Assembly: GCA_902789795.1 (NCBI GenBank)
Contig: CADAPM010000015.1
Coordinates: forward strand, 1 to 64,000
DNA: 64,000 bases
Origin: an uncultured Eubacteriales bacterium
GTDB taxonomy: Bacteria; Bacillota; Clostridia; Christensenellales; Aristaeellaceae
Direction: 5' to 3'
How positions within the stretch are numbered: the stretch's first letter is position 1; every line of letters begins with the position of its first letter. The notes below the pieces were generated by a model. It searched no databases. It was not told where the DNA came from and saw only the letters and a program-made list of their open reading frames with translations. A program made the position numbers and the translations under genes. This document shows positions 55,685 to 57,658 of the stretch, piece by piece.

Positions 55685-55714
55685 ATTATAGCACGCGGGA
55701 TATGGGCGCGTCAA
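55685..55714 (-). promoter_or_regulatory. Promoter of yebC gene
   Basis: Minus strand TTGACG (55709-55714), 18-base spacer, TATAAT (55685-55690), overlapping the end of the Rho-like gene. Confidence 0.7.
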
Positions 55715-57399
55715 ACAAATATTTGGAAACCGCGCGCATTGACGCTGCCGTTCAGGGCGAATACGCCCTGGTCGCCGTCGGGCATCAGGGTCAGGCGCAG
55801 GCTCTGGCTCTTGCAGAAGCGCGCGTCCGGCTCCTCGGGGGAGATCAGGATCACGGTGACGCTGCCGCCCTCCTTAAAGGTGCGGCCGGCCGCGAAGGTG
55901 CCCAGCAGAGCTTCGTACAGGGAGCTTTCGCTCTGCTCCAGGCTGTTCGGGCAGCTGATGATCAGCACCGCGTCCAGCTTCTGCTCCGCCTGGCGGGCCG
56001 CCCAGGCGCCGGCGAGGCGCACGGTCTGGGCCTGCTTCTCCATCGGCGCGGAGGGCTCGGTGGCCAGGAGGGGCCAATGGGCCGCCGCGCGGGCCAGCGC
56101 GGTCTCCTCCGGGGTATCCTGCACGCTCAGCACCATCAGGCGGGCATTGGGCTTGGATTCCTGCAGCTGCTTGGCCAGATCATGGGTCAGCTTGAGGGGC
56201 ACGGCTCCCTTGGCCAGGGCGCAGATGCGCTGGCCGTAGAGCAGGGGAGTGCTGGCGCTGTCGCCCTTTTCGCCGGTCTCGGTGCGCAGGGGCATGGAGA
56301 GCAGGCGCTTGCCGGGCACGATGACGTGCAGGGAATCAAAGGAAACGCGGTTCTTGATATCGTCCACCGGGATGCCGTTGACCCCGGTCACATAGAGCAT
56401 GAAGCGGTATTTGTCGCCATCGCGGCGGGAGCGGATCTTGCCTGCGACGCGGTCGCCCATGCGCAGCTGGAAGCGCCGCACCTGGGCCGCGGTCAGGTAG
56501 ATGATTGTCTCGTCATCCAGGTTGTAGTCCGGATAGAGGAAGGCGGTGCCGTCGTTCAGGAGCACGCAGGTGCCCTCGGCGTCCTCGCTCTCGTCCTGAT
56601 TGAGCAGCTCGTTGACGGCGGGCTTGCCCAGGCTCTGATAGTCGCGCAGCGCGGCGGGCGGCACGGAAGAACGGGCGTTCTGCCAGGCAGCGCCCCGGGG
56701 CTGGGCCTCGGGCACCGCGTTGGTCTCCACCGGCAGGCTCTCTGCGCGGGGAGCGGCGGCCTGGGCTTCCGCGGGACGGGCGGTCTCCGCCGGGCCGAAG
56801 CGCTGCATGGGCGCAGCCGGGCGCGGGGCGGCGGTGCGGCTGTCATAGGGCCGGGAGACGGGCGCTGCCGTGCGGGCCGGGTCCGCGGCGCGCTGGCCGT
56901 AGGGGGTATGGGAAGCGGTGGCCGGAGAGGCCGGCGCATGATAATTGTTGGGCTGGAAGCTGCGCGGGTTGTGCCAGGCCTTGGTGCCGCTGTCGATATG
57001 GAAAGCGGGGGCCTTGCTGGAGATGGTGCTCAGCACGTCGGACGTGCTGCGGGCAGCGGGGGCCGCCGGCGTGCGCACGGGATCAGAGCTGTAGCGGGGG
57101 CGCTCGGTCTGGGGGCGCGTATAGGTGCCCATGCCGTAGCCGATCTCCCGGCTCTCGTCGTCATCGTCCGAGATGATGGACGCCCGGCGAACCGCGGGCT
57201 TGGGCTGTGTTTCCGCCGGAGTCTCCACCGGATTCTCTACCGTTTCCACGGTCAGCTGCTCCGGAGCCTGGGACTGCTCGTGTTCCGCGATGCGGTCCAG
57301 GATCCCTTGCTTGTTAATGCCTGCGGACAGGGTAATGCCATGCTCGCGCGCGTACTTTCTCAACTCAGCGACTGTCATATCATCCCACACTGACGCCAT
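55711..57399 (-). CDS. Rho-like protein with degenerate ATPase (predicted catalytically dead)
   Basis: 562 residues from ATG 57399 (GGAGGAGAAAAT upstream). Parts in order: Rho_N SAP-like fold (about 8-40; TVAELRKYAREHGITLSAGI); a disordered Pro/Ala/Arg-rich linker (about 41-255); a cold-shock RNA-binding domain (about 275-345; QVRRFQLRMGDRVAGKIRSR aligns closely with Rho's QIRRFNLRTGD region); then a Rho ATPase-like domain (350-562). At the P-loop position, where Rho has APPKAGKT, this protein reads ALAKGAVP; at the Walker B position LLDS is IISC; the region of the arginine finger is cut short. The overall order and many residues (e.g. GGSVTVILIS versus GGSLTIIATA) still match. Inference: an RNA-binding Rho paralogue without ATPase activity, possibly a Rho regulator or competitor. 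A true rho gene must lie elsewhere if the organism has one. Confidence 0.85.
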   Translation of the reverse strand: MASVWDDMTVAELRKYAREHGITLSAGINKQGILDRIAEHEQSQAPEQLTVETVENPVETPAETQPKPAVRRASIISDDDDESREIGYGMGTYTRPQTERPRYSSDPVRTPAAPAARSTSDVLSTISSKAPAFHIDSGTKAWHNPRSFQPNNYHAPASPATASHTPYGQRAADPARTAAPVSRPYDSRTAAPRPAAPMQRFGPAETARPAEAQAAAPRAESLPVETNAVPEAQPRGAAWQNARSSVPPAALRDYQSLGKPAVNELLNQDESEDAEGTCVLLNDGTAFLYPDYNLDDETIIYLTAAQVRRFQLRMGDRVAGKIRSRRDGDKYRFMLYVTGVNGIPVDDIKNRVSFDSLHVIVPGKRLLSMPLRTETGEKGDSASTPLLYGQRICALAKGAVPLKLTHDLAKQLQESKPNARLMVLSVQDTPEETALARAAAHWPLLATEPSAPMEKQAQTVRLAGAWAARQAEQKLDAVLIISCPNSLEQSESSLYEALLGTFAAGRTFKEGGSVTVILISPEEPDARFCKSQSLRLTLMPDGDQGVFALNGSVNARGFQIFV

Positions 57400-57478: not shown

Positions 57479-57507
57479 ATTATAACAGACAAAACCCGGT
57501 TGCGCAA
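57479..57507 (-). promoter_or_regulatory. Promoter of Rho-like gene
   Basis: Minus strand TTGCGC (57502-57507), 17-base spacer, TATAAT (57479-57484), about 80 bases before the ATG. Confidence 0.65.
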
Positions 57508-57613: not shown

Positions 57614-57639
57614 AAAAAAACGCCCCGCAAGGCGGGGCG
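57614..57639 (-). terminator. Terminator of small acidic ORF
   Basis: 8-bp arms CGCCCCGC (57621-57628) and GCGGGGCG (57632-57639), then TTTTTTTCAT on the minus strand. Strong; ends the small gene before the Rho-like promoter region. Confidence 0.85.
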
Positions 57640-57658
57640 CTTCAGATGTTTTGCCGGA

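Follow-up and report, generated by a model that had tools for sequence, protein, structure and literature searches.

Rho has been treated as a motor, and bacterial lineages have been scored as Rho-positive or Rho-negative. E. coli Rho needs ATP to complete termination, and the Rho of Mycobacterium tuberculosis keeps its motor motifs. The M. tuberculosis protein is reported to show poor NTPase and helicase activity (PMC8828861), inactive oligomers have been described for E. coli Rho (PMC11829017), and Bacteroides Rho carries a disordered region, with short charged motifs that control condensation (Krypotou and colleagues, PMC13269538; PMC10284900). A further study describes a relaxed purine bias of genes in Bacilli that lost rho (PMC13323073).

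We analyzed a window of 64,000 nucleotides from an uncultured bacterium of the family Aristaeellaceae, in which a rho gene is present and, by substitution rates, selected while its motor is gone. Its protein has in common with Bacteroides thetaiotaomicron Rho a disordered region with short conserved motifs; however, the Bacteroides protein is an active terminator with charged KE and PLD motifs. M. tuberculosis Rho resembles the window protein in its reportedly poor NTPase and helicase activity but differs in keeping the motor motifs. The Rho-less Bacilli (PMC13323073) have no working Rho termination, as would hold for the lineage of the window; they lost the gene, whereas here it is kept in a motorless form. 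Within the Rho literature searched, a scope outside which the Moreira 2024 survey lies, no report of a Rho lineage with a lost motor was found. We describe the window protein as a putative pseudo-ATPase derived from Rho; no other Rho was found in the genomes that carry it. The finding cautions against concluding from the mere presence of a rho homologue that termination is Rho-dependent.

The Gene and Its Protein

The gene lies on the minus strand, as do all features given in this section, at 55711..57399 and encodes 562 amino acids plus a stop. The protein is Rho-derived from end to end, in the order Rho_N, linker, RNA-binding domain and RecA-like domain, and scores 95.3 bits against TIGR00767 (termination factor Rho), below the curated cut-off of 509.45. 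The Rho_N-like domain (residues 1-45; 57265..57399) reaches 15.8 bits against a profile cut-off of 24.9, and three helices are confidently predicted across residues 1-40 (pLDDT about 76-90). A linker of about 217 residues follows (residues 46-262; 56614..57264), predicted to be disordered with pLDDT below 50 across residues 45-305. It contains the motif RASIISDDDD (residues 72-81; 57157..57186) and the stretch ISSKAPAFHIDSGTKAWHNPRSFQPNNY (residues 126-153; 56941..57024), which includes WHN. The Rho RNA-binding (cold-shock/OB) domain (residues 275-344; 56368..56577) is recognized by Pfam PF07497 (E 3.3e-15; 56.1 bits, cut-off 27) and has low confidence in both AlphaFold models. Among its base-contact positions, F64, Y80 and Y110 are kept and the F62, R66 and D78 positions are changed.

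The RecA-like fold of Rho is retained (residues 361-560; 55720..56319), but without the motor residues. The Walker A position reads ALAKGAVP (residues 394-401; 56197..56220), the position of the catalytic Glu211 is Asp428 (56116..56118), and the Walker B position reads DAVLIISC (residues 476-483; 55951..55974) with Ser482 in place of Asp265. Compared to Rho as defined by TIGR00767, the window protein shares the domain order, the OB RNA-binding fold, the RecA-like core and descent, but it has lost the Walker A GK[ST], the catalytic Glu (E211) and the Walker B Asp (D265); the Q-loop, the R-loop Lys and the arginine finger are deleted or replaced, and the C-terminal end is missing. An earlier note on this DNA had described an ATPase-dead protein with the domain order of Rho and a disordered linker. 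The domain order is confirmed, the linker is disordered in the structure predictions, and the loss of Walker A, Glu211 and Asp265 makes ATPase activity implausible, to judge from the sequence. Similarity of residues 350-562 to Rho, which the earlier note had proposed to check, was found.

A -10-like TATAAT (57479..57484), our own reading and absent from the list of the scan, is the likely promoter of the rho gene, and a terminator-like site lies 5' of the gene on the same strand (57617..57643). The 3' end of the gene overlaps a strong promoter-like site at 55714-55685 (minus; TTGACG, 18, TATAAT with TG), which probably belongs to yebC.

The Only Rho Found in the Genus

The protein had earlier been taken for a paralogue beside an active Rho, a claim that did not survive a search of eight genomes. 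In the genome of the window (G000, 88% complete), a rho-model search of the whole genome found no second rho; besides the window gene, it returned only two matches, weak ones of 28 and 25.6 bits inside the window, which are read as AtpA and AtpD. A search of the same genome with the protein itself gave no other match. All eight genomes examined from the genus contain a rho homologue in an open frame, with best rho E-values of 1.6e-13 to 4.5e-37; in none of them (68-92% complete) does a match exceed the rho cut-off. Multiplying their missing fractions gives a probability of about 2e-7, if the genomes are independent, that an active rho went unseen in every one through incompleteness. The earlier note had named, as speaking against it, the combination of a genome without an active rho and ATPase activity of this protein; the first was observed, but ATPase activity is implausible from the sequence. 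Membership in the NCBIfam family paralog_Rho2 (NF041509) was considered as well. Both proteins are Rho-like; however, the score of 54.2 bits is far under the cut-off of 628 and no second rho was found in G000, and the assignment was rejected.

Across the family, 192 of 200 genomes match the rho model at 1e-6 or better and 84 are over the cut-off; a small number of the 192, G003, G116, G127 and G188 among them, do so only at 1e-6 to 1e-8, where the AtpA and AtpD hits also lie. In G080, a rho over the cut-off is accompanied by another match, to positions 3-317 of the rho model at 431.7 bits; the loci are G080:C7:3639-6146 and G080:C118:875-1972. G048, a genome of g48, carries a pair of eroded Rho genes on separate contigs (L058 and L073), both with Lys at Glu211; the P-loop of one keeps GKS and that of the other reads GKA.

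Stepwise Loss of the Motor

The family alignment comprised 62 Rho proteins, 15 canonical and 47 others. The motif table took 15 of a set of 30 loci over the cut-off and used stop-to-stop frames, so that some codons ahead of the start are included. Fragments (L064, L065/L074, L068-L071, L075) and ATPase hits (L072, L076, L077) were left out, L013, whose rho has an in-frame stop, was not used, and L005, L006 and L007 were taken as G081, G141 and G103, each counted once.

GK[ST] is intact in 30 of the 62 proteins and missing in 32, Glu211 is intact in 40 and Asp265 in 50. All three core positions are kept in 28 (15/15 canonical, 13/47 others). With these columns removed before tree building, the Rho tree requires at least 10 changes for Walker A, 8 for Glu211 and 3 for Asp265. 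Every one of the 47 non-canonical proteins belongs to one of two sister clades, A with 23 members and B with 24. GK[ST] is still present in g14, g33, g24 and g3 of clade A and in g11, G004 and G030 of clade B, and the genus of the window stands at the far end of the erosion series. An eroded motor is also found in a single-contig genome, G184 of genus g26, where the P-loop reads GKA and Val stands at Glu211.

The main groups of the Rho tree recur in an rpoB tree of 27 genomes (two canonical, some sequences partial); the differences are small, such as G044 of g44, which groups with g48 in the Rho tree. This agreement shows that rho was inherited vertically. By this phylogenetic evidence, the window gene is an orthologue that descended vertically from canonical Rho, with intermediates in sister genera. 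Since no other rho was found, it is taken as the only, vertically inherited Rho of its lineage. The rpoB of G000 itself is split over two open frames of 733 and 564 amino acids (G000:C26:23069-26489, L120), perhaps by an assembly error. In G190, rho is split into two overlapping frames (G190:C10:6089-7980; L065, L074), either by an assembly error or by a real break.

Motor damage is not confined to the family. The order was scanned in 121 genomes, 112 of them outside the family and all at least 90% complete apart from the window's own; 77 have a rho over the cut-off and nine have no rho-model match (G208, G221, G230, G241, G243, G257, G281, G292 and G303). Six of these nine belong to genus g72 of f23 and are 0.8-1.2 Mb in size, listed as 98-100% complete. 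Ten sub-cut-off rho loci from other families were fetched. Three are intact (G210, G263, G266), and seven, from five families, lack Walker A and/or Glu211: G309 (f12), G205 (f7), G270 (f23), G222 (f24), and G224, G259 and G305 (f26); the alignments of the most diverged of these order-level proteins are rough. The dead G309 and the intact G210 belong to one genus, which makes the loss in f12 recent and separate. If motifs are never regained, the motor was lost at least three times (clade A, clade B and f12) and probably more often. Graded natural intermediates in one family, together with cases in other families, offer a direct test of ATP-free Rho functions.

Selection and Constraint

Pairwise dN/dS was estimated by domain with bootstrap; some bootstraps are incomplete, with as few as 18 of 150 replicates for one Rho_N row. 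In three pairs of the window's genus, omega is 0.27-0.41 for the dead RecA domain, 0.11-0.14 for the OB fold and 0.18-0.23 for the linker. For the dead RecA domain of a g30 pair, omega is 0.26; for that of a g35 pair lacking the P-loop, it is 0.06. No completed bootstrap reaches 1 in any of these five pairs. L042 and L043 of the window's genus lie further apart and are less constrained; their dead domains are 46% identical and have an omega of 0.57, a value without bootstrap. By these rates, the gene is under purifying selection.

The distribution of constraint has changed as well. Between L001 and L039, identity is 93% in the OB fold, 72% in the RecA domain and 70% in the linker; in a canonical pair of similar dS (L011/L016), the corresponding values are 80%, 86% and 21%. 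In the two canonical pairs compared, the RecA domain is best conserved (84-86%) and the linker worst (21-27%). Judged from such identities, the strongest constraint in the window's genus now lies on the N-terminal RNA-binding part and no longer on the motor. The shift is also seen in the g30 and g35 pairs, is not clear in g48, and is absent in g11, where the motor residues are kept; among two g48 pairs and the g11 pair, the OB fold is at least as variable as the RecA domain in two of three. Selection and the pattern of constraint together suggest that, in the window's genus, the protein is kept for something that leans on its N-terminal half.

Linker Motifs

Two stretches of the linker are conserved, a SIIxDD-type motif and KAPAF...G..AWHNP. 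The SII-type motif occurs in 19 of the 24 clade B proteins. WHN is found within the first 420 amino acids in 38 of the 47 proteins of clades A and B, with an aromatic or KAPAF stretch upstream of WHN/AWHNP, and, outside g46, in none of the 14 canonical proteins of the family that were examined. In g46, a sister genus whose Rho is intact, the motif takes a WTRP form (YVHRWTRPG). A DNA pattern for AWHNP gave one rho hit in each of eight genomes and, elsewhere, one hit each in G006 and G141, and the reversed control pattern gave no hit. WHN is present in proteins with all three core positions intact (g24, g33 and g11), so the motif seems to be older than the loss of the motor.

Possible Functions and Alternatives

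We favor, with a probability of roughly 60%, the reading that the gene encodes the only detectable Rho of its genus, descended vertically, whose ATP-driven helicase motor decayed while the protein was kept to bind RNA independently of ATP, anchored by a partner. Rho descent, the loss of the motor residues and the purifying selection are established by the comparisons above; the other task that the protein would serve is proposed. Rho_N and the OB fold would hold RNA with an altered base preference, since F62, R66 and D78 are not preserved at their positions but F64, Y80 and Y110 are; RNA binding may thus persist in modified form. The dead RecA domain would persist as a fold or oligomer scaffold, and the conserved WHN motif would dock a partner, for which RNA polymerase and RNA-processing factors are possible candidates. 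Classical ATP-driven Rho-dependent termination would then be absent from the lineage. A wider version, which we regard as doubtful, extends ATP-free Rho to the clade: once WHN had tied Rho to a partner, the motor would no longer have been needed and would have decayed several times over. What remained would be an RNA-bound regulator of transcription or RNA fate that has no motor and works without translocation.

Decay as a pseudogene, in which Rho is dispensable and the remaining frame is being lost, would agree with the stepwise erosion of the motor motifs, the nine order genomes without a rho-model match and the weaker constraint in one genus pair (omega 0.57). It is nevertheless very improbable and already contradicted for most pairs: as the earlier note had held, the frame is intact, being free of stops in all eight genomes examined from the genus, five pairs give a dead-domain omega of 0.06-0.41 with every completed bootstrap below 1, and Rho_N, the OB fold and the linker motifs are conserved. 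Hardly credible is a paralogue with a dominant-negative or regulatory role inside the hexamers of an active Rho. The retained RecA fold speaks for such mixing, but no rho over the cut-off was found in any of the eight genus genomes (chance of a miss about 2e-7 if independent). Within the limits set by eight genomes that are 68-92% complete, this rules out both mixing, an option raised earlier, and competition with an active Rho.

Two other possibilities were considered. By analogy with Bacteroides Rho, the disordered linker and the OB fold might form RNA-dependent condensates, here without a motor. The linker is predicted to be disordered and is constrained (omega 0.18-0.23 in three pairs), and short conserved IDR motifs are reported to control condensation of Bacteroides Rho (PMC13269538); however, KAPAF..AWHNP and SIIxDD differ from the charged KE motifs of that protein, and motifs of this kind fit partner docking too; condensation is unlikely. 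Also quite unlikely, in our judgment, is a transcription factor independent of translocation, which would stay bound to RNA polymerase by its N-terminal part and would make the enzyme pause or inactivate it with no need of ATP. The N-terminal modules are the most constrained part of the protein in the window's genus, and a translocation-independent step was reportedly proposed for E. coli Rho by Said in 2021, but E. coli Rho completes termination only with ATP, and contact with polymerase is hypothetical for the window protein.

Purine Bias

The purine bias of genes was compared between 21 genomes of the eroded clades, one stretch each (the 64-kb window, 19 stretches of 20 kb and one of 14 kb), and 20 canonical genomes (17 stretches of 20 kb and three of 18-19 kb). 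G011 and G158, both in the eroded-clade sample, keep all three core positions. No relaxation was found in these samples, with a median purine content of 51.3% in the eroded and 52.0% in the canonical genomes (p 0.41). Relaxed bias, expected if the loss of Rho termination has the effect described for Bacilli, thus finds no support, which counts against the favored reading; the test equally cannot show that termination persists. At fourfold sites, purine is lower in clade B (p 0.008) and higher in clade A (p 0.04), both without phylogenetic correction. In f12, the dead G309 has 53.3% purine, not below its four active relatives (51.1-53.3%), and in the f26 genomes, with a dead rho or none, purine is high at 54-57%.
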